Below are positions 4,989 to 27,680 of a stretch of 30,199 nt of DNA, in pieces. Below the pieces are notes generated by a model that ran no database searches, was not told where the DNA came from, and saw nothing but the letters and a program-made list of their open reading frames with translations. Source of the stretch: a virus. The stretch's first letter is position 1, and each line of letters begins with the position of its first letter. The stretch covers positions 1-30,199 of the IMG/VR virus record IMGVR_UViG_3300023176_000357; one strand, written 5' to 3'. The position numbers were made by a program, and so were the translations under genes.

Positions 4989-7900
4989 TTATAAACCTGC
5001 AATCTCTCCTGTGTTTTTAAGTCTTAATGGAATGTAAATGAATTCAACAGCCTTAACAGGTTCAATAGCAATGTCTAAGTATAGTTCATTTCTATCAATT
5101 CTGCTCGGAGTGTTGTTTGATTCATCACAAACAACAAGGAAGTCATACAGTGCTCTTTGACCTACTAGCTCAAGCATTAAGCTCTCTGCCGCTTGTTTAA
5201 TTTCGTCACGTGTAATCTTATCGTTTGGTTCAAAGATATATGGCTTAGCAAGTTGATTCAATTGACTACGTAAGTAAATTACCAAACGTGCTACGTTGAT
5301 TCTATCTAATGCACTCGATCCTCTTGCACGAGTCTTCTGACCAAAGTTAACAAGACCTGCACCTGTAATGAATGTAATTGGGTTTACATTCTGAGCATAT
5401 AGTGTGTCTCTTTGACCTTCGTTAAGTGCAATGCTTGTAAATTCGCCTTCACTATCGATATAACCTACACTTGAAGCGTTAGTAATGCCGCCGCGTCTTG
5501 TACCTGCTGGTGCAAACCATGGGAAGCTAACTTGGTCGCTAAGTGCAACAGTTCTTAAAATCATATGACTTGGAGGAACAACAACATTGTTACCAAAGTT
5601 ATCGCTTGTAAAGCCCCATGGATAAAATACACCAAAGTATTCATCTCGGCTTACTAATCCGTTGTCATTATCTTCAACAGCTAGGTTAACGTTTGTTGCC
5701 CAGTTGTTTAATGAAGTAGCATCTGGTGTTAGTCTTGCTGGGCTATCGCCTACAACAAATGCTGTCAAGCCTCTGTCATAGTTTAGACTAATCATTTCGC
5801 CAATTAGCTCAGGATATCCTGGAGTTGCCATCAAGTTAAAGATTCTTGACTCGTCATCTCTAATATCATCATTTGAGTTAACCATTGCTTGTAGTGATTG
5901 GATAACAACTTTACGCTGTGCTTTACGTCCAAAGCTACCTGAACCATCTTCTTGGTTAGCTGATTCTGTAACCCAACGGTGTGGATAATATCCATCCATT
6001 GCTTCATCATCAAAGCGTCCGTTATCTTCATTTAAGTTAATAGCATTTCTTACAAACTTCTTAACATTAAATCCAGAACGTCTTAGATTCCAAAGGATCA
6101 TTCCTTTTGGATATAGTGCTGGATCCGGAGCATCTGGGTCCATGTATGCACTTAGCATCATTTCGTCAATGTCTCCTGCTGTGTCTGAGTTTGAACCTGC
6201 TGTATTATATCTTGCATCTGCAAATAATACACCATTTTCAGAAGTTTGATCTGACTTGTCAAGTAGTACCCATCTATTTTCTGCACGAGTATTTGTTAAC
6301 TCTGCATTATACTTGTAAATCATTGGATAGTTTTCAATATCTGAAGTATCAATCCAAATATCTCCTGTTACAAGTCCGTTACCGTCAGTGTGTTCTGTTG
6401 GTCTTGTAGAACTTACAATAGGTCCATCTGGGTTTGTTCCAGTATAAGGACTAGGAGCAATAAAGTTTGCATCTCCTTGTGATCCGCGTCCTGCAAAGTT
6501 ATAACCTACCCATGTAGTACCGTTATGAATCATTAAATCAACTTCGTCTACAATTGAGTTATACCATAATGCACCATCGTCAGTTAATGAAGTAACTGGA
6601 TCTTCTGATGCTGTGTAGAATGCAACTTCTGATCCTGCACTGTTAATAGTGCCTCTCCAAAGACTTGCTTGTAATTGCATTGGAGTTGTACTTCCGTCTG
6701 TACCTGGAGCATAATATAAATCTGGTGTTCCAGTGTTTACATTAGTAAATGCACTAAAGCCCATTTCGCTTAGTACTGGACCATCAACTTCAGCATCAGC
6801 AATGCCGTCTGTGATGTGTACTTCGCCGCCTTGAGAATGTTTAATAACAATTCTGTTTGTGCTTGTAACTTCTGCACTTACATTTGGAATTGCGGCTCCT
6901 GTAATTGCGCTTGCAACAACATCGGCGTCACTTGCATTTCCTGTTGTAGTAAACGTAACACTATATGACGCACTAAAGTCTGCATCGCCTCCGTCTGTTG
7001 ATTTAATGAATATTTCATAATCGCCAGCTGTGATGCCGCTTGAGTCTATTGCTGAACCAGTAACTTGAGTTGGTGCAATACCATCTCTTTTGTATACTGT
7101 AAATGTTGCTAATGGTTGTACATCTCCTGCAACATTTGATTTAACATAGATATCGCCGGCAGCTATATTTGCGCCGCCTCCTGTTCTATCTAATTCATAT
7201 AGAGCTTGTTCATTGCTTGCATAAATTGGTGCATCTACGCTATCCCAAAGTTGTGTAGCATCATTAAATACTTTCATTCTCCAACGTGCGCCATTTCCAG
7301 GCTCTGTTGTTTTAATCCAAATAGATCCTGTTGGACGTGAGTATGTGTCGCTAGACTTAAACTCTGGTACTTGTGTATGTTTACTAATTTGAAGTGCTGG
7401 TGGATAATATGTGCCTGCTGTAATATTAAGTTCTCCTAATAATGTAGAATCACCTGTAATTACAACTTCACCGCCGCCAACTGAATCTTCTTGTGCAGAA
7501 GCAGTACCATCACTGTAAATTGCTAGTCTGCCATCTAAAACCTGTGCAGTAATACCTGTAGGTCCGCTTGGTCCGCTAATTGCATCTGCAACATCTGAAT
7601 ATGTATCTGCATCTGTTACAGTAATTGTTGTTCCGTTGATTAAGAAGTTACTTGAAACTTGACTAAATCCTGATTGCGGAATAGTTCCGCTACTTGTTAC
7701 TGCTGGATGACTTGAGCTCCATTGGTCGCTGCCAACTAGTACCCAAGTTCCTGCTACTATGCCTGCATTACTATTGCCTGGGGAACGGTAGAACATTCTT
7801 ACAACTGTGCTACCAAATACAACCGCATAATCTCCGATAGCACCAACAGTTGCACGAGGAACCATTCCGTCTGTGCCGTTAATGCCTAAAGTGCCGCTTG

Positions 7901-8429
7901 TCATATCTGCACTTTCGGTAATTACAATAGGAGTTTTATTTGTAAAAGTTTGACCGCCCGTTGTAGTAATAGCGTTTCCGTTCCATTCAAAAATACCAAA
8001 ATTTGAAATTTGTGTATCTAGCCAATATGTTCCGTTTGCTGGTGTAGCCGCTGGTGCAGTTGCACTAGCTTCTAGTGAAGCAAGATCTAAATCAGCTCTA
8101 ACAACCCAAGCTCTGTTGCTTACGCCTAAATATGAATAAGCCGCTTGTAGTCCATATTCATTAAGTTCTCCTCCATGAATTGGATTATTGTTGTTATCTG
8201 TATAAAATAATGGATCGCCGAATGTGTCGGCTAAATCTCTTTGTGAAGTAAGCAAATACGGTACTCCTGCATTTGCTTTTGTTGTACCTTGTGCTACCCC
8301 TGTGCCTGAAGAGTTTGTTTTATTCTCGGCAGAGGCAACAAAAATCATCGGTGTTGTTCCTGGTTCTGCTGGCGTATAGAAACTTTCGTCTATTACGCTA
8401 ACCTGAACGCCTGGTGATGTCAATGCCAT
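4989..8429 (-). CDS. 18: Contractile tail sheath protein gp18, enlarged
   Basis: 1146 aa against 659 in T4 gp18. The sheath contracts to drive the tube through the envelope. The N-terminus (SPGVQVSVIDES, residues 5-16) and C-terminal region (about 760-1146, including KTRARGSSALDRINVARLV and EPVKAVEFIYIPLRL) are the conserved polymerising core. Residues about 120-735 are a large outward-facing-type insert. Inside it are four Trp-hairpin modules (about 132-150, 366-397, 617-644, 687-725) and a duplicated beta domain (about 268-345 and 490-575). It has an AGGAGA Shine-Dalgarno and a late promoter 41 nt upstream. The protruding-insert role in surface decoration is inference; sheath identity is firm. 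Confidence 0.95.
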   Translation of the reverse strand: MALTSPGVQVSVIDESFYTPAEPGTTPMIFVASAENKTNSSGTGVAQGTTKANAGVPYLLTSQRDLADTFGDPLFYTDNNNNPIHGGELNEYGLQAAYSYLGVSNRAWVVRADLDLASLEASATAPAATPANGTYWLDTQISNFGIFEWNGNAITTTGGQTFTNKTPIVITESADMTSGTLGINGTDGMVPRATVGAIGDYAVVFGSTVVRMFYRSPGNSNAGIVAGTWVLVGSDQWSSSHPAVTSSGTIPQSGFSQVSSNFLINGTTITVTDADTYSDVADAISGPSGPTGITAQVLDGRLAIYSDGTASAQEDSVGGGEVVITGDSTLLGELNITAGTYYPPALQISKHTQVPEFKSSDTYSRPTGSIWIKTTEPGNGARWRMKVFNDATQLWDSVDAPIYASNEQALYELDRTGGGANIAAGDIYVKSNVAGDVQPLATFTVYKRDGIAPTQVTGSAIDSSGITAGDYEIFIKSTDGGDADFSASYSVTFTTTGNASDADVVASAITGAAIPNVSAEVTSTNRIVIKHSQGGEVHITDGIADAEVDGPVLSEMGFSAFTNVNTGTPDLYYAPGTDGSTTPMQLQASLWRGTINSAGSEVAFYTASEDPVTSLTDDGALWYNSIVDEVDLMIHNGTTWVGYNFAGRGSQGDANFIAPSPYTGTNPDGPIVSSTRPTEHTDGNGLVTGDIWIDTSDIENYPMIYKYNAELTNTRAENRWVLLDKSDQTSENGVLFADARYNTAGSNSDTAGDIDEMMLSAYMDPDAPDPALYPKGMILWNLRRSGFNVKKFVRNAINLNEDNGRFDDEAMDGYYPHRWVTESANQEDGSGSFGRKAQRKVVIQSLQAMVNSNDDIRDDESRIFNLMATPGYPELIGEMISLNYDRGLTAFVVGDSPARLTPDATSLNNWATNVNLAVEDNDNGLVSRDEYFGVFYPWGFTSDNFGNNVVVPPSHMILRTVALSDQVSFPWFAPAGTRRGGITNASSVGYIDSEGEFTSIALNEGQRDTLYAQNVNPITFITGAGLVNFGQKTRARGSSALDRINVARLVIYLRSQLNQLAKPYIFEPNDKITRDEIKQAAESLMLELVGQRALYDFLVVCDESNNTPSRIDRNELYLDIAIEPVKAVEFIYIPLRLKNTGEIAGL

Positions 8430-14435: not shown

Positions 14436-14679
14436 ATTTCTCAAAGACTATAATAGTTTACAAGTCCAAATAGAAACAATTCAAGACATTGATACAAAAA
14501 GCAAACTTAATGGCATGTTACGACAACTACGCCTCGAGGTGCAAAGACTAGACACACATCATAAAGAAATATCACCTAGTAGTGCATTGGGGCAAAAAGC
14601 ACACGATACTAGAGATAAAATTCAAAATCTAAGAAGACAAATAGTTAACGGTCTAAAAGATTATAAAGAAGCGCATTAG
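14410..14679 (+). CDS. Small coiled-coil protein
   Basis: 89 aa from ATG 14410, chosen because AAGGAG sits 6 nt upstream; longer in-frame starts within the cupin lack one. It is predicted mostly helical with heptads (YNSLQVQIETIQDIDTK, LNGMLRQLRLEVQRL, KIQNLRRQIVNGLKDY). I do not recognise the family. It ends the plus-strand unit, and its stop is inside a hairpin shared with the convergent gene. Confidence 0.75.
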   Translation: MFSLSTSPKFLKDYNSLQVQIETIQDIDTKSKLNGMLRQLRLEVQRLDTHHKEISPSSALGQKAHDTRDKIQNLRRQIVNGLKDYKEAH

Positions 14680-14691
14680 GCTTGCGCTTCT
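14667..14691. terminator. Bidirectional hairpin spanning both stop codons of convergent genes
   Basis: A perfect 9-bp stem AGAAGCGCA / TGCGCTTCT with a 7-nt loop. The TAG of the plus gene (14677-14679) and the TAA of the minus gene (14676-14678) both lie in the loop. Minus-strand readout gives TATAATCTTTT after the stem; the plus side has no T-tract. Confidence 0.75.
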
Positions 14692-17600
14692 CCCCATCTT
14701 AAAATAAGCGATGCATTAACATCAGCACCACTAATCTTATACACATTAATTGCTAATACATCTGGTCCATTAGGGAAAGTACCTCTACCGCCTATTGACG
14801 TAGTTGTAAGTTCTTTAAGTTTGTCAAGTGACAGCGTTTCAGTTTCACCCGGATTTGCAATAAACGAAAATACTTGCTCTCCAGGCTGTGCATATGCAGG
14901 CTGACTCAAATCAAAATCAATAGTTGCCGCGGAAGCAAAACTACCTCTGAAGCCTTGCGTAAATGTTACCACATAATAGGTTGTACCGCCAAATGACTGT
15001 AAACTTACATTTGCTACTCTAGTATTAGCTGGAAACTCTGTTTGAGACGATGCAACTAAATCATTTATTGCGACACCTTCAGCGTTCCAAGAAGTTTCTG
15101 TAAACACAAGTCTGTTAGAATTAGTGTAAGTATTGTTTGTATATGATTTTGCAAGTGTTATTGTTTCAACACTAGTTGTGCCATCTGTCCCGAATATTTC
15201 TGTTCCAGACCATTCTGCACTCATTCTAATTCTCGTAAAAGAAGTTCCATTTTCTGTTTTGTTTGCTCTGTCAACACTTTGCACTGTAGTTCCTGCGGGG
15301 AATGATCCACCAATTACACTTGTTGAAACAAATCTATCACCGCTTTGGATGTTAGAACTATCAAATACAGTGTCAGGTATGAACCAATCTTCGTCTCCAT
15401 CTTCAAAGGCATAGTCTGTACCGCCGGGTCCGTTACCACCAGCATTCCATGCAGTAAATGTTGCTTGCACTTCGCCTTGTATAGTTGGGCTACCAGTAAG
15501 AACTGTTGCGCCCCCTGCCCATGTTACAGATCCGCCTAGTGCAATCTGTGCAAAACTAGGCTGGCCGCCTGCAGCCTCACTTGATAGTCCGTTCCAAGAA
15601 ATGTCATTTGGATTTATAGGATAGTTCTGAGGATTAAGAACACCTTCAACAATAATTCCGCCTGCTCCAGTATCGGAAGTAATGGATAACGAATCTAGCA
15701 ATAGCTGGGCTCTGTTCAACAGTTCTCTTTCTCCTAGATCGCCTACAACAGCATTTGATACGCTAGGAGCAAGTCTAATTAAAAATGCAGTTTGTTTAGT
15801 TGTACTTACAGGAACACCAGTTGCGGCATAGTTGAAAATGTAACCTCTGTCATCGTCAAACAGTCCATCAATCATATATGCAGAACCCCAGTGACTAATA
15901 ATAGGACTTGTTGTACTACTGATAAGATTTACACCTTTATTGTCTACATGAGAGTCAGCTGATCCTGCTGTAAATGATCTGTTTGCTCCTGCGGAAAAAT
16001 TTGAATATGTTCCTCCTCGGTTACAACCTGTAAGTTGATTAAGTGTGTCGTCTTTACCTGTATATGTTATAATTTCGTTATCAACATAAATTGTACCTTC
16101 TTCAGGGAAGTCAGCAGTATCATCTAAAGTAATTGTAGTCTGTACAGCATCTATTGCTCCGTTTAACCTAGACTTAGAACCTTCATTAAGTGTTTCATAA
16201 CGTACTGGCAAGTTACCAGTTCTCATAAATGCTTCTGTGTTTAGATTGTTACCTTTCAGTCTATGACAGAATGTATAGTCACCATTTGGACCTCTTACCA
16301 TCCAATCAATAAATCCAGCGCCATACCAACTAAACTGCATGCCAATCATTTGCATTTTTGTAACGTCTAATTCGTATCCGCTGGGTCCAGTACCATCTAG
16401 TCTGTCTAAGTTCCATTCGCTTTGAGGTATAATTACATCTTGCACTTTGGACATTTTTACGCCCGTAACATCGTTTACACCTCTAAAATCCGGTGTTACA
16501 TAACACTCAGTATTACTTTCGATATGTGAAATAACATGTGTCATTCCTCTAATAACAACTCTATCACCTTCTTGTAACTGATCTATAAATCTTGTGTTTG
16601 TTCCTACAACAACATTTTTGTCTGTACCAATTGCTATAGTACCAGCAACTTGGAATGTACTTGTTCTTCTTCCTACTGCAAGTGTCTGTCCATCATATTG
16701 AAAGAAAATACCATTTTGGTCATCAAATGGTCCTGATCGTACAACTGCACCGTGCCATTGATAAGTTGCAATCTGACAAATAGCACCTATATCTGCTGTT
16801 GTATTGCCGAGCGCAGTAGTTGCATTAACTGTAAAAGTTCTTTCGTCTATAATACTGTTGACAACATACTGTCCATCATATCCTGTAGTTTGCACTCCGC
16901 TTAATTTTATAGTACATCCTGATTGTAGTCCGTGATCATTGTCGTCTGTTACAATAGTAATTGTGCTACCAGATGCTGTACCCGAAGCTGTTACTGATCT
17001 GACATCATAACTTGGGGCAAACAAACATCCTGTGTTGTACATTGCACCTTTACCTGACTGATAACGAATGTACTTTTTACTTTGACGTATTGCTTGACCT
17101 CCGTGTTGCGGTCCGCCGGTACCTAATTGTACACCCCCGTCAAATGCTCTGTGACTAAAGAAACTATCAGGTCTAATATACACAGATCCGTCTATTTCTG
17201 TAGTAGTGTCAACTGTTCCTGGGTTTCTAGTAATATATCTAATTGTAGTTGGACTTGGAATTTCTGTTACAAAAAATGGTCCGCCTGCAATTTCGTGATT
17301 AGTACCGGACGAACTAATACCTACCATAATACTTGCACCCGGTACTAGTCCATGGTTGTTGTCAAATTCAACTTGTATCGTAGCAATACTACTGTACGAA
17401 ATTGGACTGTTGATTCCTAATTGTGCAGTTGTTGATTGAGATATAGATACTGCTGAATATACGTCAAGTGTATCGCCTAAAACTGCTGTGCCAGTTACAT
17501 CACTAAAATTAGTAATCTCTCCGCCTTCGACAACAACTCTAAATGTTATGTCATTAGTAGGACTTGTTCCGCCTAAACTAGTTCCAGGTATTGTATATTG

Positions 17601-19688
17601 CTCTCCGTCATAAATTTCACTTCCGCCGTCGTTTACTCCAGCAAAAGAATAGCTACCGCTATCTCGTCTGATGTTTATGTCTCCGTTAGATGCATTTGGA
17701 TTTGTAGTTTGACTTGCGCTAAGTCCAGTAAATGAGCCTGTTCCTGTACCATTTCCTGATATAACTAATATTTCTTCAATAGATCCTACAGTACTATCTG
17801 CCGCTGTACTTACTACTTTTATATAGATATCATTGTCAGGTGTTAAGCCGCCTACCTGCGTACCTAGTATTCTTAAAGTGTCGCCTTTATTATAACCACT
17901 ACCTGGGTTGTCAACACCAACTACATCGTAAAATCCAGCATCTACAGTTACACTAAATGTTGCATTTGTAGCAGTACCTGCTACGTTGTTAGACGTGCTT
18001 AAAATTAAATTATTGTAAACCTCTGTGTTACCAACATAACTAGTCGTAATAGGTTCATTCAACGTGATCTCACTGCCTGCTATACTTGTAATTACTCTTT
18101 GTTCTGGTGTTGTGCTATCAAACCAATCATCTGGAATTGTCATACCAGGACTTAGACCAGTAGCATCTTCAAGCATAATTGTTGTTGATCCGGATATTGC
18201 TTCCTCATCAACTCTTACAGTTTTTACGCTGCCGCCTGTACCATATACCGCAGTAACCTGTGTACCGGTATCAATGCCAGTACCCGATAAAGGTGCACCT
18301 AATGGCGGAATATTATTACTGTCCCAAGTGATTGTTGTTGCTCCTGAGGGCACTATTAACGGATTAGTAAACGATCCATTTGAACCTTGGCTTGGTACTG
18401 TAAATCTAGGAGTACCTATACTAGCGCCTGTGTAAAAATCAGCTTTTCTAAGTTGCGTAGTAGATGTTGCTAAAACTTCGTTGTTTGATGTTCCAACCTT
18501 TGCTTTTGCATAATAAGTAAAAGTTGTATTACTAGGTACAGTGTAAATTAAAAATGTTCCTTCAGCACGGTTAAATCCGAGTGCAGAACTTGCCAATGCT
18601 TTAATTGTCATAGGCTGTCCTTGTATTAACCCGTGCGGTCCTATTGTTGTTACAGTAATTAAACTTGCTCCTACTCCGCCGTTTCCTGTACTTGCATCTG
18701 TAACAACATTTGATACAGGAATATCAGAAGCTGACACTTCAAATGTAGAAGGATACCCCCTTTGGAGAGATAACGCTTGCCACTTTGTAGGTTGCAGACC
18801 ATATTCAAAGTCTGCATCGATCATTGCTTGCGGTAATCCAACACGCATACGTTCGATAGCATCAGTACCAAAATCATACGGTCTAGTTCTTATTTCTTTT
18901 ACTTCTAAGAATATTTGTAAATTATCGTCTACTGACATAGCAGAGGTGTCATACTTAAAGTTAACTATTGTTGTACCGTTACTAACAGATTCTGCTCTAG
19001 GATATCCTTCTGAATTACCTGCTGTAAATTTAGTTGTAGCCCCTCTACTAGGATCTGTGAAGCTATATACAATTTCGTTGCTGGTTACATTACTAATAAT
19101 AAGTAAATCTTCTAAACCAATTTTATCTTGTAGTTCTACTCTACCTAAACCTACTGTAAGCGTAGGTAAACTGCTTAACCCGTTTTGAATCACAGAAACT
19201 AAGTCATTTAAAAGTTCAGTTACCCTGGTTGTTGTACTAGCCTCTCCGTCATTGGCTAAAGTTACTTGTGTAGCATCACTTTGTTCTGGAGAGCTATTAA
19301 CGACATTAGGCAAAATATATGTATTAACAGTGTCTCTTAAAAATTGATATGCTTCGTATTCAGGAATTCTATTTCCGTCAATTTGGGGTACTTCTTTGTT
19401 CCAATAAAAACCAGATACACGTCTTGTTTCTTCGTTACCGTTGTATCTTAAATCGAATATTAATGCATCTATTACATATCCACTATCTCTTAAACATTTT
19501 TCTTCGTCATATGTATATCCTGCATAATCAGGATTTCCAGCATCCACTTGGTTTTGAATGTAAGCGACAATTTCTTGTTGCAAAAAAGTTTTATTTTCTT
19601 GCAACAATGCTACGGCATTGGGTCTTGCATTGCCGTCTATTCCTAATCCTGGACTAAATCTATATTCTTTTATAAGTGTTTTTGCCAT
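14676..19688 (-). CDS. Giant modular virion structural protein (fibre/baseplate-associated type)
   Basis: 1670 aa, a large structural protein of the marine T4-like type. The N-terminus has the KCLRDSGYVIDALIFDLRY motif (about 64-83) frequent in such proteins. HGL-containing beta modules recur at about 345-398, 768-820 and 908-958. A GSGYNKGD / GGSEIYDGE repeat appears at about 586-650 and 680-738. A conserved core (about 840-1160) carries FFSHRAFDGGVQLGTG and RQSKKYIRYQSGKGAMYNTG. Near 1190 is a TTITLDDTADFP...YTG element. There is no signal peptide. It has a good AAGGAT Shine-Dalgarno and follows 19698-20813 by 9 nt. Tail fibre or baseplate location is inferred from neighbours. Confidence 0.85.
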   Translation of the reverse strand: MAKTLIKEYRFSPGLGIDGNARPNAVALLQENKTFLQQEIVAYIQNQVDAGNPDYAGYTYDEEKCLRDSGYVIDALIFDLRYNGNEETRRVSGFYWNKEVPQIDGNRIPEYEAYQFLRDTVNTYILPNVVNSSPEQSDATQVTLANDGEASTTTRVTELLNDLVSVIQNGLSSLPTLTVGLGRVELQDKIGLEDLLIISNVTSNEIVYSFTDPSRGATTKFTAGNSEGYPRAESVSNGTTIVNFKYDTSAMSVDDNLQIFLEVKEIRTRPYDFGTDAIERMRVGLPQAMIDADFEYGLQPTKWQALSLQRGYPSTFEVSASDIPVSNVVTDASTGNGGVGASLITVTTIGPHGLIQGQPMTIKALASSALGFNRAEGTFLIYTVPSNTTFTYYAKAKVGTSNNEVLATSTTQLRKADFYTGASIGTPRFTVPSQGSNGSFTNPLIVPSGATTITWDSNNIPPLGAPLSGTGIDTGTQVTAVYGTGGSVKTVRVDEEAISGSTTIMLEDATGLSPGMTIPDDWFDSTTPEQRVITSIAGSEITLNEPITTSYVGNTEVYNNLILSTSNNVAGTATNATFSVTVDAGFYDVVGVDNPGSGYNKGDTLRILGTQVGGLTPDNDIYIKVVSTAADSTVGSIEEILVISGNGTGTGSFTGLSASQTTNPNASNGDINIRRDSGSYSFAGVNDGGSEIYDGEQYTIPGTSLGGTSPTNDITFRVVVEGGEITNFSDVTGTAVLGDTLDVYSAVSISQSTTAQLGINSPISYSSIATIQVEFDNNHGLVPGASIMVGISSSGTNHEIAGGPFFVTEIPSPTTIRYITRNPGTVDTTTEIDGSVYIRPDSFFSHRAFDGGVQLGTGGPQHGGQAIRQSKKYIRYQSGKGAMYNTGCLFAPSYDVRSVTASGTASGSTITIVTDDNDHGLQSGCTIKLSGVQTTGYDGQYVVNSIIDERTFTVNATTALGNTTADIGAICQIATYQWHGAVVRSGPFDDQNGIFFQYDGQTLAVGRRTSTFQVAGTIAIGTDKNVVVGTNTRFIDQLQEGDRVVIRGMTHVISHIESNTECYVTPDFRGVNDVTGVKMSKVQDVIIPQSEWNLDRLDGTGPSGYELDVTKMQMIGMQFSWYGAGFIDWMVRGPNGDYTFCHRLKGNNLNTEAFMRTGNLPVRYETLNEGSKSRLNGAIDAVQTTITLDDTADFPEEGTIYVDNEIITYTGKDDTLNQLTGCNRGGTYSNFSAGANRSFTAGSADSHVDNKGVNLISSTTSPIISHWGSAYMIDGLFDDDRGYIFNYAATGVPVSTTKQTAFLIRLAPSVSNAVVGDLGERELLNRAQLLLDSLSITSDTGAGGIIVEGVLNPQNYPINPNDISWNGLSSEAAGGQPSFAQIALGGSVTWAGGATVLTGSPTIQGEVQATFTAWNAGGNGPGGTDYAFEDGDEDWFIPDTVFDSSNIQSGDRFVSTSVIGGSFPAGTTVQSVDRANKTENGTSFTRIRMSAEWSGTEIFGTDGTTSVETITLAKSYTNNTYTNSNRLVFTETSWNAEGVAINDLVASSQTEFPANTRVANVSLQSFGGTTYYVVTFTQGFRGSFASAATIDFDLSQPAYAQPGEQVFSFIANPGETETLSLDKLKELTTTSIGGRGTFPNGPDVLAINVYKISGADVNASLILRWGEAQA

Positions 19689-19697
19689 GTTATATCC

Positions 19698-20813
19698 TTA
19701 AGCCCCAAATGCTACTGCAAACGCTACTGCTGTTGCATCTACATACTCTTTATTTGTTAAATGATCAGATTGCGTAGGAGCAGAACTTGCAGTAACATTA
19801 TTTCCTACGTTCACATCTCCACCAATACCAATTCCACCTGTCACTATAATAGCTCCTGTTGTTGTGCTAGTAGACTGCGTAGCATCTGTAAATCTAGCTA
19901 ATCCACCTACAGTTATATTTGCACCTATGCCTACACCACCTGTAACTACTAGGGCTCCGTTTGATACACTATCACTATTAGTGTTACCTGTTACATTTGT
20001 TGTGCCTACACTTAAATTTCCCAGCGTTGCGGTTTGTGTATTATAATCATACGTAAAGCCTGCATCGCCGCCAAATTCTAGTGCATCATTAAACTGCACG
20101 TAAGTATCTACACCCCCCGGAGGTGTGCCGCCACTTGGACTAGTTACTGAAGCCCAAGTAAGTGTACCACTTCCGTTAGTGCGTAAAAACTGTCCTGACG
20201 CACCATCCGAACCAGGTAATGTATATACTCTATCAGTACTTATGTTATCTGGAGCACTAAAGCCTACATAACGATTATTTGACGGGTTATAAAGTTTTAA
20301 TTCACCACTTGATCGTACTTGTAAATCTGTTGAAAATAATGTTCCGTTTACTGTAACATTATCATCAACATATAAGTCGTCACCAATTCCTACTCCGCCG
20401 GTGACCCTTAATGCACCACTATCTGCTCCAGTTGTAGCGTTATTATTGTTAATAACTAAAGGATTAGTTATCGTGCCGCCGTTAAATCCTGTTGTAACAT
20501 CAATCAGAGGACGCCAGTCTTGTGTTGTTTCGTGCCAAGTAAGTTTTGCTCCATCTTGAGGTGTAACACTAGTTACATCTGATATATCGTTTAACGCAAC
20601 ACCTGTAATTGTGCCAGTAACATTTATGTCTGCAACATTAGAAGTTCCACTTACTGTCAATGCACCAGTTGATACGCTATCAGCTGTGACGTTTTCAAAG
20701 GAAGGCGAACCCTCGGGAAGTACGTCCCAAGCAAAGCCATTCCACTTCCATTTTGCAGAACCTTGTGTATAAATTTGATCTAGTGCTGGATCATTTGGAA
20801 AATTTATTGCCAT
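19698..20813 (-). CDS. Repeat-containing tail fibre protein
   Basis: 371 aa. The N-terminus FPNDPALDQIYTQGSAKWKW followed by NGFAWDVL is a phage fibre opening, with a Trp hairpin. The body is Gly/Thr/Val-rich beta sequence with three copies of a GA(L/I)xVTGG(V/I)GIG motif: GALRVTGGVGIG, GALVVTGGVGIG and GAIIVTGGIGIG. A fourth, GTLVVTGGVGI, lies in the S74 fibre at 26724-27680. The C-terminus (TNKEYVDATAV) is a short helical trimerisation-type end. SD AGAGGTAA precedes ATG. It is 10 nt downstream of the cupredoxin fibre. Identity as a fibre is firm; which part of the virion is not known. Confidence 0.82.
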   Translation of the reverse strand: MAINFPNDPALDQIYTQGSAKWKWNGFAWDVLPEGSPSFENVTADSVSTGALTVSGTSNVADINVTGTITGVALNDISDVTSVTPQDGAKLTWHETTQDWRPLIDVTTGFNGGTITNPLVINNNNATTGADSGALRVTGGVGIGDDLYVDDNVTVNGTLFSTDLQVRSSGELKLYNPSNNRYVGFSAPDNISTDRVYTLPGSDGASGQFLRTNGSGTLTWASVTSPSGGTPPGGVDTYVQFNDALEFGGDAGFTYDYNTQTATLGNLSVGTTNVTGNTNSDSVSNGALVVTGGVGIGANITVGGLARFTDATQSTSTTTGAIIVTGGIGIGGDVNVGNNVTASSAPTQSDHLTNKEYVDATAVAFAVAFGA

Positions 20814-20823
20814 TCAATTACCT

Positions 20824-21945
20824 CTATAAAGTCGCAAAACTCTTAACTAATATTTGTCCTACCATTGCAGAGTGTGCTGTACATTGGTACCTATAAGTTC
20901 CACTAATAGATGCAGGTATTTTCCAATATAGTGTTCCACTTGTTTTTTGTTGTGCATTTGCACCAGTGCTAATCACACCAGATGTGCTTACATGGACTAA
21001 TCCTGTATTATATTCAACACCTGATACATCTTGTATTGCAAATGGATGTCCAGATACATCTAAATTAAATGCTAGTGTAGTTCCACTTATTGCATAAATT
21101 GTTGGATTTCCTCCTGAATAATGACTGTTCATATTATATGCAACTACACCATTATTAGTAACCTCTAACATGGCTATAGCTGGCATATAAATTTTATCTA
21201 TAGAAAGGCCTGCTACGTCTGTTAGTCCTGAAAAGGTAGTACTACCTAATACACCTGTAAAGTCTATAGTTAATTCGTCGCCATTAATTGTTGTACCAAT
21301 ATTTGTTCCGCCTAATACAGTTAAAGTATCTACTGAACTATTTGCACTTGTTGTGCCTGTGTCTGCATTAATAGTAGCAAAACTATTTGCGCTATCTCCA
21401 CCTTCTGTTGCTTGAGCTGAAATAGTAATAGTATCTGTATTAGGATTTGTAGATATTGTAACATTTGCACCGGCAACAAGATTTAGCGTATCTGTAGCTG
21501 AATCTGCTATGACAGGAGATTGTCCAACTACAGAAATTGTAGAAAATGTATTATTAGAAGATCCTCCTGATCCGCCGCCAACTACTACACTTTGAGGTTG
21601 TACCCATTGCGCATTATCTGCATCTTGATAATATATATACAACACGCCAGTGTCGGTATCAAACCATAATTCTCCTGCAAGAGGGTCAGACGGTGCATTG
21701 TCAGCTAGTTCTATACTTGCAGTAATACCAGCATCTTGTGCTTTGTTTGCAAAAACTGTATTGTCAACGTTACTTAAATCATCTTTTACAAGAGTATAAC
21801 CGCCCTTTAATACTCCGTCATACAAGCGCAGTGTGTTGGTTTTATCTTCAAAAAAGACATCTCCTTTTGAACCGATATTCCTATTAAGGAAATCTGTCTC
21901 TCTTGGAATTATACGAACGTTGTTAAATAGTACCGATTTTGACAT
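20824..21945 (-). CDS. Tail fibre-like protein with C-terminal cupredoxin domain
   Basis: 373 aa. Two short hairpin modules lie near the N-terminus (GDVFFEDKTNTLRLYDG at 28-44; GELWFDTDTGVLYIYY at 91-106 ending W114). A Ser/Thr/Asn-rich beta region (about 125-250) follows. Residues about 250-373 look like a cupredoxin: LAFNLDVSGHPF with H300, then GTYRYQCTAHSAMVGQILV with C355, H358 and M361. The spacing C-x2-H-x2-M is that of amicyanin, and all four type-1 copper ligands are present. Copper binding and electron transfer are inference; the domain might only be a structural adhesin. A late promoter (21978-21984) precedes it. It is the first gene of a block with the repeat fibre and the giant protein. 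Confidence 0.8.
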   Translation of the reverse strand: MSKSVLFNNVRIIPRETDFLNRNIGSKGDVFFEDKTNTLRLYDGVLKGGYTLVKDDLSNVDNTVFANKAQDAGITASIELADNAPSDPLAGELWFDTDTGVLYIYYQDADNAQWVQPQSVVVGGGSGGSSNNTFSTISVVGQSPVIADSATDTLNLVAGANVTISTNPNTDTITISAQATEGGDSANSFATINADTGTTSANSSVDTLTVLGGTNIGTTINGDELTIDFTGVLGSTTFSGLTDVAGLSIDKIYMPAIAMLEVTNNGVVAYNMNSHYSGGNPTIYAISGTTLAFNLDVSGHPFAIQDVSGVEYNTGLVHVSTSGVISTGANAQQKTSGTLYWKIPASISGTYRYQCTAHSAMVGQILVKSFATL

Positions 21946-21986: not shown

Positions 21987-22694
21987 TTAGTCAAACTTCT
22001 TTTTAGAATGAAATAAATTCTTGTAAAGTCTCATTATTGGATTATTTTCTCTACGCATAAAAAATCTTATAAGACTATTTTTGTTTTGAGTAGATGATAC
22101 TTCCATTTTCCAATCGTCCCTTTTGAAGGGAATAACTTGTACTAAAGGGTCTCCTGGAGAAATAGTTATTCTTTCTTTAACCGGTGTATTAATAACACCA
22201 GTAAATTGCACAGGAGTATCATATTTGTCTGTATCAACTATTGCAGGGAAAAATGTATACCGCTCTTCAAAGAAGTAAAACGGTTGAAAAAATAAACAAC
22301 TATAACCAGGAGGTGTTTTAACAATCCAATCGTTGCTTATTTTAAAGTAACTACGTTTTTTGCCTTTTACACTAACAGGACATTGCTCATGATGATGTCC
22401 CGTTACATATGCTTCATTATAACTAGGATGCCTAGAACTGTGTGTAAGTATATCTGTACCTGGAATTTCCTGCATTTCTAAGTCAGTTTCCCATGCATTT
22501 TTTATGATATATCCACTTGTAACAAAGTCAGTAACAGGAACACAAGTTTTAATAGTTGCAATATCTCCTTTGAAAGGCGGACAAAAATTTGTTGTTGAAA
22601 GGTCTTTATACCAGTCTGGTAGAAACTTTTTAGCAGGAACTGGAGAAAAATAATCTACAATATTAGGATCTTCACTTATAAATTTAATTTCCAT
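21987..22694 (-). CDS. DUF6065-like conserved protein
   Basis: 235 aa from ATG 22694; a GTG nine bases upstream is possible, but the MEIKF start is normal for such proteins. The order PVPAKKFLPDWYKDL, TIKTCVPVTDFVTSGYII, DWIVKTPPGYSCLFFQPF, AIVDTDKYDTPVQF and PGDPLVQVIPFKRDDW resembles the DUF6065-type proteins of phages and cyanobacteria. Function is unknown. The ATG lies inside the stop region of the upstream oxygenase-like gene (11-base overlap), so the two are coupled. Family call is from motif memory, moderately sure. Confidence 0.7.
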   Translation of the reverse strand: MEIKFISEDPNIVDYFSPVPAKKFLPDWYKDLSTTNFCPPFKGDIATIKTCVPVTDFVTSGYIIKNAWETDLEMQEIPGTDILTHSSRHPSYNEAYVTGHHHEQCPVSVKGKKRSYFKISNDWIVKTPPGYSCLFFQPFYFFEERYTFFPAIVDTDKYDTPVQFTGVINTPVKERITISPGDPLVQVIPFKRDDWKMEVSSTQNKNSLIRFFMRRENNPIMRLYKNLFHSKKKFD

Positions 22695-23322
22695 AGGACA
22701 CACTGTATTTGTTTGTTTTTAATACATTTAATCTAAAATTTGCACTTATTGTTTTTCTTTCTTCGTGACTTCTATTTCTGCTAACTGCATGGTCGACAAA
22801 TGATGGAAATATAACAATATCACCTTCTTGCAAGTTAATTTGATGATTTTTTATCGGACTAGGAAAATCAAATAATAGTCCTAATCCTACAGATGAAAAG
22901 TAATCATTCCTGTCTACAAATAAAAAATCGCAACTGTTTTCTGGTTGTTCTAAAACATAGTTGCAACTAAATTGAGTAGAACCGTCTATATGATTATGCG
23001 GCTCTTGTCCTTCATTGTAGGCATACTTATTACCCCAAGCATGGAGAGGTTCTACACTTAAACTATCTTTATCAAATGGTTTTAGATCTAATATATAAGG
23101 AATAAAATGTTCTCGTACAACTAATTGTAAAAAATCGTTAAAAGGTATTTCGTCGTGTGCTTTTTGACTGTGAATAGTTGTTTTGCAAGGTGCTAACCAT
23201 GTAGATGGTAAATCAAAATATTCATCATTATCAAAATATGGTAAAAATTTTTCTTTTATTTCTTTATGTTGCTTTATATTAGCATGATAAAAAGGAATAC
23301 CAAATAAATGAGACGTAGACAT
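22684..23322 (-). CDS. 2-oxoglutarate/Fe(II) oxygenase-like protein
   Basis: 212 aa with a double-stranded beta-helix pattern. Metal ligands appear as H111-I-D113 (in EPHNHIDGSTQFSC) and H178 (FPSFVDHAVSRN), with R189 (ERKTISANF) placed to bind 2-oxoglutarate. Strands SCNYVLEQPE and GDIVIFPS surround them. The family hydroxylates proteins, nucleotides or small molecules; no substrate is readable. The ribosome site is AGGAGT. It is between a second oxygenase-like gene and the DUF6065-like gene, so they form one unit. Confidence 0.8.
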   Translation of the reverse strand: MSTSHLFGIPFYHANIKQHKEIKEKFLPYFDNDEYFDLPSTWLAPCKTTIHSQKAHDEIPFNDFLQLVVREHFIPYILDLKPFDKDSLSVEPLHAWGNKYAYNEGQEPHNHIDGSTQFSCNYVLEQPENSCDFLFVDRNDYFSSVGLGLLFDFPSPIKNHQINLQEGDIVIFPSFVDHAVSRNRSHEERKTISANFRLNVLKTNKYSVSYGN

Positions 23323-24342: not shown

Positions 24343-25122
24343 TTAACTTCCTACGTCTGTTTCTTCAAAACCGTTTATGCCATAAACGTTTATTACTGTT
24401 GTGTTACTACCGCTTCTAGCGTTGCCTTCAGCGTTTCTAAATACCATGCCTCTTGGCATATACCAGTTTTGACCGTTTGTACCGGTCATTGGTTCTGCAT
24501 GGTTCCAATCGCAACTCCACCAAACATAAGTTTCGCCGTAGTCTCTAGTTCTATGAGCAGATGTTCCTACAACTGCTACGCCTGTCTGTGTATTAGAGTT
24601 AGGCAATGCTCCAAAATAAAAGTCTGCGATTTGAAAACTTTCACCGTTTGCGTCTGTTCTATAACCCGCATTACCTGTATACCAGTTGGTTATAGGACAC
24701 AAGCTGGTTCTATTTGAGTTGTAGTCTGCGTTTATAGCGCCGTCGTTTGATGCTCCCCAGCTTTGACTGTATTGATAGTTGCTGTCGCTATCTTCGTTGC
24801 CTTCACCGTCTATGAATCTAAAATAAGGACGACTACCATCTGAGTCAGGATCGACTGTTAGGTATATACATCTATACATTGCATACCTATGATTAGTGTT
24901 ATCCCAACGCACAGTTAATGAGCTCCATTCTGCTGTACTTCTTTGACTTGTAACCAGCGTCATGTCTCCAAGGCCTGCAAAAGTGTCTGTATTATTTAGA
25001 TCATAATAACCTTTGAGAGCCTTTGTTGTTGTATCTTGAAAGATAGCTCCTACAGTACTATCTCTGTTCCCGCCACTTGCTTGGGGGAACGTCATTCCAT
25101 ATTGATTTAATACGATTGCCAT
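24343..25122 (-). CDS. Tandem adhesin-like virion protein, paralogue 3
   Basis: 259 aa. It shares the fold pattern of its two upstream neighbours: short N-terminal L-x-QY motif (LNQYGMTF), a GAIFQD-type hairpin, WSSLTVRWDN-NHRYAMYR, SWGASNDGA, and a final TTVINVYGINGFEETD. The middle region (about 130-220) is different from the others. Starts in a TAATG overlap with paralogue 2. A receptor-binding role is inferred from tandem duplication and the fibre context. No signal or membrane segments. Confidence 0.78.
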   Translation of the reverse strand: MAIVLNQYGMTFPQASGGNRDSTVGAIFQDTTTKALKGYYDLNNTDTFAGLGDMTLVTSQRSTAEWSSLTVRWDNTNHRYAMYRCIYLTVDPDSDGSRPYFRFIDGEGNEDSDSNYQYSQSWGASNDGAINADYNSNRTSLCPITNWYTGNAGYRTDANGESFQIADFYFGALPNSNTQTGVAVVGTSAHRTRDYGETYVWWSCDWNHAEPMTGTNGQNWYMPRGMVFRNAEGNARSGSNTTVINVYGINGFEETDVGS

Positions 25123-25919
25123 TAGTAATTTACACTCTCTGATTCTTCGTATCCGCCTACGCCAAACACGCTTATTATTGTACTACATCCTGTGCCGCCA
25201 CGTACTGATCCTTCATGACTTCCAAAACGTAACCCATCTATTTTATAAACCTCTCCATTGCTTGCGCCGCCAAGTGCATCAGGCGCATTGCCTAGATTTA
25301 CTTCTCCGTAGCCTTGGCTATGCAATACACCATTTGGTGTTCTACATGTACTTAAACATTTGAATACCGGACGGTTTTGACTATTGGAACTAGGTATTCC
25401 GCCTGAAATACGTATAACAGCTAGGTTATGACTTTCGCCATTTGCTTGCGTTCTATAGTCTGATCTAGAACGATCTCCTACTGTTTCCCAAATTGAGCTG
25501 TACCAATAGTTGTTAGATGCTCCGTCATAACCGTCATTTGAACACCCCCAAGCGTTTACATATCCGTATTCGCTGTCATCAATTAACGAGCCGTTGTTGT
25601 ATACACGTAGCCAAATACCGCCAGTTGTTGTAACATCGTTGGTTAGCATGTATACATCATATGATAGATATCTAGGCGTCCAGTTTAAATCTAGTGTAGT
25701 CCAAGAACCATAAACCTTTCTATGAGCTACAAGATTGCCGCCGCCCATAGCATGCCAACCTTCACCGTTGCCTACATTATCGGCAAGATCGTGATACATT
25801 TCATAGGCTTTATTGTCGCCATTGAATACTATGTCTCCAACTTCTGGGCTAATTGTTTTTCTTTGAGCATGAGTAATGCTCGGTAATCTAACTGAATACT
25901 GTGTTAATTGTGTTGCCAT
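25122..25919 (-). CDS. Tandem adhesin-like virion protein, paralogue 2
   Basis: 265 aa from ATG 25919; an upstream in-frame start at 25964 lies inside the previous gene and is rejected. Shared features are LTQYSVRL, VGDIVFNGDNKAYEMY followed by GW, SWTTLDLNW, YGYVNAWGCSNDG and CSTIISVFGVGGYEES. Cysteines are more numerous than in the other two (about residues 198-250). It overlaps both neighbours by TAATG, so the three are translated as a coupled set. Confidence 0.8.
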   Translation of the reverse strand: MATQLTQYSVRLPSITHAQRKTISPEVGDIVFNGDNKAYEMYHDLADNVGNGEGWHAMGGGNLVAHRKVYGSWTTLDLNWTPRYLSYDVYMLTNDVTTTGGIWLRVYNNGSLIDDSEYGYVNAWGCSNDGYDGASNNYWYSSIWETVGDRSRSDYRTQANGESHNLAVIRISGGIPSSNSQNRPVFKCLSTCRTPNGVLHSQGYGEVNLGNAPDALGGASNGEVYKIDGLRFGSHEGSVRGGTGCSTIISVFGVGGYEESESVNY

Positions 25920-26713
25920 TATCCCATATCTCTTTCTTCGTAACCCGTAATACCATAAGCACAAAATACTGCATTTATACCTTCTGCGGCATCTCTTGCA
26001 TTGCCAGTACTCCAGTATATCCTACATCCTGTTATAGGCCACCAGTTTAGGCCTCCATTAGTGCTTTTTGTATTACTATTCTGGTCTTGTCTATAAATTC
26101 CGCCGAACAAGCCGCCACCTGTTCTATTTTCACTTCTATAACTATACCAACCATTTATAATTTTTTGCTCATGTGAATTTGTAGGTAAATTAGCTACAAA
26201 TGTTTGCATGTGATAGTGATCTTCTGCTGTTGATGCCAATTGATAAGAACCGTTAGTAGGCGAAATAAAATGTCTACTAGTTGGGTTTGAATTTAATCTA
26301 TTGTTTTGATGTGCAAGATCCCAACCATCATTTGCACAGTGAAATCCAATAGCAGTGCCATAATCACTGCCGCTGTCTACACCGCTATCATTTCTCCAGC
26401 GTAACTGTAGATAGGCATTGCTAGAACCGGGATCGGCTAGCACACAACTTACTTCGTAAAACGCATATCTATAATTCGAACTGCCCCAATTTAAATCCAA
26501 ACTTGACCAAGTTCCAGATACTGCTTGCCTTGCTAGTAGATGTCTTCCGCCAACTCCGTACCAACCATCAGTGCCGTATGCATTATTTTTATACAGCTCA
26601 TAGGATTTGTTTTCAGTGTTATATCTTATATCACCTTCGACTGGTGATCCAGTACGATTTGCTTTTGTACCTGCTCCTATTTTAACTGAATACTGTTTTA
26701 ACTTTGTTGTCAT
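25919..26713 (-). CDS. Tandem adhesin-like virion protein, paralogue 1
   Basis: 264 aa. N-terminal LKQYSVKIGAG, then VEGDIRYNTENKSYELY and GW form the hairpin module also seen in other virion proteins here. Then WSSLDLNWG-NYRYAFYE, YGTAIGFHCANDG and INAVFCAYGITGYEERD. The last block is the best-conserved ending among the three paralogues. It follows the S74 fibre by 10 nt. Likely distal fibre or tip protein; not assigned to a named family. Confidence 0.8.
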   Translation of the reverse strand: MTTKLKQYSVKIGAGTKANRTGSPVEGDIRYNTENKSYELYKNNAYGTDGWYGVGGRHLLARQAVSGTWSSLDLNWGSSNYRYAFYEVSCVLADPGSSNAYLQLRWRNDSGVDSGSDYGTAIGFHCANDGWDLAHQNNRLNSNPTSRHFISPTNGSYQLASTAEDHYHMQTFVANLPTNSHEQKIINGWYSYRSENRTGGGLFGGIYRQDQNSNTKSTNGGLNWWPITGCRIYWSTGNARDAAEGINAVFCAYGITGYEERDMG

Positions 26714-26723
26714 TTATCAAACT

Positions 26724-27680
26724 CTACTTTTTTAATTCTTCTACCTGCGCTTTCAACTCTTTAATTGCTTCTACAAGCAAAGGAATAACTTTTTCATATT
26801 GGATAGTAAGATAATTTTCGCCGCTTATACTGTTATTGTTTTCATCAATATCAAATGGTGCTGGCTTCACTATCTCCGGAAGTACTTCCTGTACTTCTTG
26901 AGCAATAAGTCCAACTTGTTGACTGTAGTCGTCATACCCATATTCTTCTGCTTTTTTGTTTTGAGTATATACAACACCATTAAGTGATGCAACTTTATCT
27001 AGTGCATCGCTAATATTTTCTTTTATATCTTTTAATCTTTTATCAGAATAAAATGCAGTAATTGCGTTGGTTGCTCTAATTTCGCCGGCTGTACCTGAAG
27101 CGTTAGTGTTAACACCTAAACTATCTACACGCATGTCTGCGGCAAATGTTGTACCACTTATACCTACGCCGCCTGTTACAACAAGTGTACCTGTAGTTTT
27201 ACTACTAGAGGTAGTGTTATCAGCAAGTTTTAGTTGTCCTGTGCTAGGATTGTATTGGAGATTAGCGTTAACTAAAACATCTGTAATTGTAGCATTACTA
27301 TTTGCATTACTAAAAGTAATATACTGTGTAGCGTTTGTAGTAGTAGTTGTTCTACTTATGTATGGGTCTCCCCAATTAAGTGTACCGCTTGCATTTGTTT
27401 GTAAAAATTGATCTGCACTTCCGTCTGCATCCGGTAGTGTCCATGTGACATTACTACTAACTGTTGCAGGTGCTTGAAAAGCCACCCAATTACTACTATC
27501 AGAATCCATCAAACGCATATCACCTTGTCCGTTTATTTCAAGATTCTTTGTAACAATTACATCGCCTAAAGGATTTAAAATTAAATCTTCACCTGCTTGT
27601 ACTGTTTCAATAGTATTTGTTTCAACTGATAGCGAACCTAATCCTGGAAGTGCTACACCGTTTGATATTCTACGTCCCAT
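26724..27680 (-). CDS. Tail fibre with S74 intramolecular chaperone
   Basis: 318 aa. The body is beta-rich and contains VTGGVGISG (about 168-176), like the repeats of the 19698-20813 fibre. From residue 211 the C-terminus is a Peptidase_S74/endosialidase-type chaperone: YSDKRLKDIKENI with S212 and K217 at the known +5 spacing of the cleavage Ser-Lys pair, then VGLIAQEVQEVLPEIV, LTIQYEKVIPLLVEAIKEL and a coiled-coil end. Such domains trimerise the fibre and cut themselves off. It predicts a mature fibre of about 211 aa. SD AAGGAT. Confidence 0.92.
   Translation of the reverse strand: MGRRISNGVALPGLGSLSVETNTIETVQAGEDLILNPLGDVIVTKNLEINGQGDMRLMDSDSSNWVAFQAPATVSSNVTWTLPDADGSADQFLQTNASGTLNWGDPYISRTTTTTNATQYITFSNANSNATITDVLVNANLQYNPSTGQLKLADNTTSSSKTTGTLVVTGGVGISGTTFAADMRVDSLGVNTNASGTAGEIRATNAITAFYSDKRLKDIKENISDALDKVASLNGVVYTQNKKAEEYGYDDYSQQVGLIAQEVQEVLPEIVKPAPFDIDENNNSISGENYLTIQYEKVIPLLVEAIKELKAQVEELKK

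Follow-up and report, generated by a model that had tools for sequence, protein, structure and literature searches.

Metal bound within a phage tail fibre has a precedent in the iron of T4 gp37 and of marine phage fibres, which is held by conserved histidines in HxH pairs and shared along the trimer axis (PMC11705849). A 'Ferrojan' or Trojan horse role has been proposed for such iron in marine phages (PMC11705849). Blue copper proteins are also known from phage genomes, where plastocyanin (PetE) is encoded as an auxiliary metabolic gene (PMC3037559). Among cyanophage tail proteins, those of the gp9 type are annotated as 'baseplate wedge tail fiber connector' (PHROG_677; Syn9 gp102, S-TIM4 gp9), and virion proteomes have been described for S-SM1, Syn9 and S-TIM4. 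In the gp9-type annotations examined, a copper domain goes unmentioned. No earlier description of a cupredoxin on phage fibres was found in the open-licence literature, an absence that is not proof of novelty.

The DNA analyzed here is a 30,199-base fragment of a virus record (henceforth, the window), and a single copy of the domain was analyzed in the window itself. It belongs to a fibre-like protein of 373 aa found in the ORF list (20824-21945, minus strand), which matches PHROG_677 (tail) over residues 181-370 (E 1e-44). The protein begins with a module of residues 1-118 (RIIPRE...GELWFDTDTGVLYIYY; 21592-21945, minus strand) and ends with the cupredoxin domain, residues ~248-373 (20827-21204, minus strand). 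The predicted copper ligands, all read from the minus strand, are H300, the first ligand, within a GHPF motif (codon CAT, 21046-21048); C355, the sole cysteine of the protein (TGT, 20881-20883); H358 (CAC, 20872-20874); and the axial M361, replaced by Gln in some relatives (ATG, 20863-20865). All four lie in the frame of ORF 20824-21945, within GTYRYQCTAHSAMVG, and C355, H358 and M361 show the C-x2-H-x2-M spacing of amicyanin. Judged from its sequence, the domain holds the ligand set of a type-1 site: two His, one Cys and an axial Met or Gln. A preliminary description of this DNA had reported these ligands within 20824-21200; their identity, numbering and spacing were correct, as were the coordinates, which take in the domain and the stop codon.

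The domain resembles the amicyanin/plastocyanin-type cupredoxins (PF00127, TIGR02657) in its predicted fold and four ligands, and it has the short C-x2-H-x2-M loop of amicyanin. It differs from them in being fused to fibre chains, in having no known electron-transfer partner, and in scoring far below both curated cut-offs: a single-sequence search gave 13.7 bits for Pfam PF00127 (Copper-bind), whose gathering score is 21.2, and 17.6 bits for the amicyanin model TIGR02657, whose equivalog cut-off is 110.2. PF00127 was matched at E 0.01 or better by 2 of 16 relatives. The likeness to the HxH iron fibres (PMC11705849) lies in a metal site, here a predicted one, within a tail fibre, in conserved histidines and in a marine phage origin. 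However, the histidines of the 373-aa protein are found at 275, 300, 318 and 358 only and form no HxH pair, and an iron fibre of this kind was rejected on that basis; the set is of copper type, with Cys and Met, and one site would lie inside each cupredoxin domain instead of being shared along the trimer axis. PetE is likewise a phage-borne blue copper protein, carried by similar phage genomes, such as that of S-CAM1 (SXBG_00207), but it is a free photosynthetic protein, unlike the virion cupredoxin. The 108-aa cupredoxin ORF at the PetE locus of S-CAM1 scored no better than E 0.07 against the profile of the virion domain and hence represents a separate branch. A displaced photosynthetic plastocyanin gene was also discarded, as the domain is fused to fibre or baseplate chains and stands far from the plastocyanin-type ORF.

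When residues 248-373 were modelled with AlphaFold2 from 25 sequences, a fold of 10 strands was obtained (pLDDT 92.6, pTM 0.86). The top Foldseek matches in the PDB were all cupredoxins with a probability of 1.00, yet with TM-scores of just 0.4-0.58; amicyanin, rusticyanin, AcoP, plastocyanin, multicopper oxidase, NirK and CuA domains were found. The best VIA-align match was CuNiR (Z 12.3, rmsd 2.5 over 114 residues), in the second NiR domain, which is not known to carry a type-1 site; hence, the protein nearest in backbone differs from the one nearest in its metal site. Both the low TM-scores and a best alignment on this NiR domain count against the copper-site reading. At the sequence level, a single-sequence PDB search detected amicyanin weakly (E 0.74), while a family profile retrieved amicyanin at E 1.5e-6, nitrite reductase at 1.4e-5 and plastocyanin at 3.8e-5. 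A profile from a wider alignment gave the same PDB relation, and the significant profile matches were copper proteins only. In the amicyanin alignment the YQCTAHxxM loop pairs with YHCTAHPFM, but the first His is two residues off (HPF in the phage domain, PHN in amicyanin). The equivalence of H300 therefore rests on the fold and on the NirK alignment, in which the histidine of the HP motif pairs with the first His of HGLSIH.

On the predicted structure, a Greek-key beta-sandwich of the plastocyanin/azurin type, the C-terminal domain belongs to the cupredoxin fold superfamily. This fold had been named as a check in the preliminary description, and Foldseek and VIA-align agree on it. The model of the full-length 373-aa protein has a pLDDT of 48 and is confident for the C-terminal domain only. 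The domain had also been placed 'at the tip' of the fibre: its C-terminal position is sound, and a structural tip goes beyond the part that is confidently modelled.

A scan with two peptide patterns for cellular relatives yielded one match of 21 residues, in a Gemmatimonadetes MAG, and no match to the domain was found in plasmid sequences. In BFVD, the domain model matched by fold a 'blue type 1 copper protein' from Fadolivirus as well as 'beta-sandwich' proteins from Pithovirus and Marseillevirus records. A weak, sub-threshold likeness to the plant At5g54830-like domain (PF25489) was seen in L041:5359-6579 and in three members of the broad alignment.

Ligand conservation was measured in 52 copies, non-redundant at 80% and not chosen by their ligands, with a mean pairwise identity of 37% and a minimum of 13%. 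C355 and H358 were kept in 52/52, H300 in 50/51 and M361 in 49/52, the three exceptions being Gln in every case. The codons vary synonymously in this set: H300 is CAT in 28 copies and CAC in 22, C355 is TGT in 34 and TGC in 18, and H358 is CAC in 23 and CAT in 29. A summed entropy as low as that of the ligand columns was reached in 6 of 200,000 random draws of four columns, and 45 of the 52 domains contain exactly one Cys. A wider, 17-row alignment shows H300, Y353, C355 and H358 as invariant, with M361 kept in 16 rows; this alignment was built from ligand-bearing copies, so that the 52-copy set is the fair test of conservation. Homology, together with conservation of the four ligand columns, rules out a chance motif. 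The near-invariance of the ligands among these non-redundant copies also bears out the conservation in homologous fibres that the preliminary description had named as a check.

Copies without ligands do exist. In the T4-GC 399 protein, which contains two cupredoxin repeats, the first repeat has the ligands and the second lacks all four in Syn9, S-SSM5 and P-SSM4; in L090 the second repeat keeps them. One domain copy of P-HM2 is also ligand-free. Partial losses are rare, and in the second T4-GC 399 repeat all four ligands vanish together while the fold signature is kept, which indicates that the fold can persist without metal. This second repeat serves as a natural control: because ligands are lost in one repeat and kept in others, they are not needed merely for holding the fold. 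These ligand-free copies fit the idea that the domain is a metal-free adhesin, a sturdy beta-sandwich derived from a copper protein, with ligands persisting for packing in a virion that carries no metal. An unneeded site decays, however, and the family of the window keeps the four residues together down to 13% identity; this, along with the rarity of partial losses, makes us regard a metal-free adhesin as unlikely. The same near-invariance at low overall identity disfavours the option, offered in the preliminary description, of a stable fold that simply kept its ligands.

A tblastn search with the Syn9 domain matched 342 phage records; the records are redundant, with many S-RIM and ACG isolates, and should not be read as independent lineages. 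For scale, the Syn9 gp8 baseplate query matches 473 records. Most of the 342 belong to Synechococcus and Prochlorococcus phages, and marine single-cell viruses, one Pelagibacter phage, an Actinomycetia phage and the podophage P-GSP1 are also represented. When 15 cyanophage records were searched in full, 14 of them had the domain at one to five places per genome, with a maximum of five in P-HM2. The remaining record, S-CREM2, whose virion proteome has been described (PMC10665884), yielded no domain copy in its genome. The domain was likewise absent from the controls T4, PA5oct, Atu_ph07 and Pelagibacter phage HTVC008M in whole-record searches. By homology, what had been presented as a single case belongs to a family that is widespread, and many cyanophages have several copies in each genome.

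The proteins that carry the domain are diverse. In cyanophage gp9-type baseplate proteins it is found at the C-terminus, and the window protein has in common with them the C-terminal half and the domain (35-42% identity). The N-terminus differs: Syn9 gp102 has T4_gp9_10_N (E 1.3e-10, above cut-off) followed by the C-terminal cupredoxin, which therefore sits on a true T4 baseplate homologue, whereas no match to T4_gp9_10_N was found in the 373-aa protein of the window. Hence, the gp9-type name of PHROG_677 fits the window protein through its C-terminal half only. The T4-GC 399 protein, of ~1387 aa, follows the gp9 protein and adds a YHYH domain to its two cupredoxin repeats. The Pfam YHYH match in the Syn9 protein (L041:6586-10746) has an E of 1.2e-17, and L090 has such a protein as well. 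Two relatives with 70% identity to the first 118 residues of the window protein (L006 and L009) end without a cupredoxin. Most near relatives (L003, L007, L008 and others) have instead a MAINFPN-type N-terminus followed by a C-terminal cupredoxin; in the window, that N-terminus belongs to the adjoining fibre-like gene (19698-20813, minus strand), which lacks a cupredoxin. L002 has two cupredoxins within one protein. Sister genes with the RIIPR N-terminus contain an inserted cupredoxin with either Gln or Met in the axial position, axial Gln being known from stellacyanins; an inserted domain with C-x2-H-x2-Gln was observed in the sister fibre gene of L003, L005, L007 and L013. C-terminal and internal copies were found among Sf-CH8, S-H34, Bellamy and S-SKS1. 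Such comparisons identify the domain as a shuffled module, which gp9-type, T4-GC 399-type and other tail proteins bear as an appendage, an insertion or a repeat. The label 'phage fibre-like', used in the preliminary description, is supported by the PHROG matches, by the neighbouring genes and by relatives annotated as tail or baseplate proteins.

The C-terminal position in fibre-type and gp9-type proteins, and the analogous proposal for iron in marine phages (PMC11705849), would suit a function at the host surface: the copper-loaded domain might dock to a copper or redox protein of the host, or exploit its copper uptake in the manner of a Trojan horse. There is, however, no known partner; baseplate proteins also have the domain at internal positions and in tandem, and it occurs in phages of unrelated hosts. 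We give this proposal a low probability; copper might act directly in host contact, which would be the more surprising outcome.

The surroundings of the gene are mosaic, in that a jumbo-phage-type sheath bearing a Flagellin_IN motif and a fibre cassette of cyanophage type lie side by side (4989-8429; 14676-19688). The tail sheath, of 1146 aa, is closest to those of jumbo phages Phosso, Atu_ph07 and PA5oct, and the gp15-like protein is closest to PA5oct relatives. A neighbour of 1670 aa has 47.7% identity to an S-CAM1 virion protein. A cyanomyophage origin of the window is thus unsupported, while the fibre cassette is cyanophage-like. Eight contigs that carry relatives of the fibre also encode a sheath 63-69% identical to that of the window, which thus belongs to an uncultivated group of marine myophages with a cyanophage-like fibre cassette. 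Other genes of the window include a 2OG-Fe(II) oxygenase gene near the fibre gene (22684-23322), two probable paralogues that match phrog_2415, a family of no known role (24343-25122 and 25919-26713), and a fibre-like protein that ends in a Peptidase_S74 intramolecular chaperone (26724-27680).

Evidence is in hand for the predicted fold, the homology to blue copper proteins, the conservation of the ligands, the shuffling of the module and its association with tail proteins. Fold and ligands together indicate that the site is probably a genuine type-1-like copper site and the domain a metal-stabilised tail module. The explanation that we favour, with somewhat more confidence than doubt, is that of a cupredoxin with an amicyanin-type type-1 copper site, mobile on marine tail proteins and acting as a metal-stabilised bead. 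The 373-aa protein, whose presence in the virion is suggested by homology, would form part of the tail, probably in trimeric form as other fibres do. Its site would acquire copper, or some soft metal like it, either from seawater or from the cell as it lyses, and the bound metal would tie the C-terminal ligand loop to the beta-sandwich much as a disulfide does, in a protein that has a single cysteine and is synthesised under the reducing conditions of the cytoplasm. This might stabilise a terminal or interstitial bead for protein-protein or host contact. As the domain is repeated, inserted and appended, with ligands mostly kept and sometimes lost together, a structural bead is more fitting than a protein devoted to electron transfer.

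The bacterial cytoplasm, in which tails are assembled, contains little copper, and this counts against the copper bead. Zinc is more available there, and the sites of cupredoxins are able to hold Zn as well as other soft metals; the site might therefore be a structural one of zinc type, filled with another metal such as Zn during assembly. The ligand set is nevertheless exactly that of copper, and copper proteins account for all the significant profile matches; hence, we hold such a use of another metal to be quite improbable.

Since a domain with nearly unchanged ligands is found in hundreds of phage genomes, the virions of phages that carry it are likely to contain copper. Should six gp9 trimers attach as assumed from T4, the gp9-type copies by themselves would bring about 18 Cu to each particle. 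The broader proposal that marine tailed phages, most sequenced cyanomyophages included, carry tail copper in a conserved family of virion cupredoxins, several to a genome, that are needed for tail stability or host adsorption is put forward tentatively, as we are nearly evenly divided about it and lean slightly against. If it were true, phage particles would constitute an uncounted pool of copper-binding ligands in seawater, the copper counterpart of the iron-fibre idea. At the level of annotation, proteins named 'baseplate wedge tail fiber connector' or 'hypothetical' hold a predicted copper domain. If the sites are filled, these domains would form a class of virion metalloproteins, beads of the blue-copper type with which abundant marine viruses equip their baseplates and fibres, and would offer a metal-based alternative to disulfides for the stabilisation of fibres of cytoplasmic origin. 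This would link phage particles to trace-metal chemistry, and the dependence of phage infectivity on copper would become directly testable.
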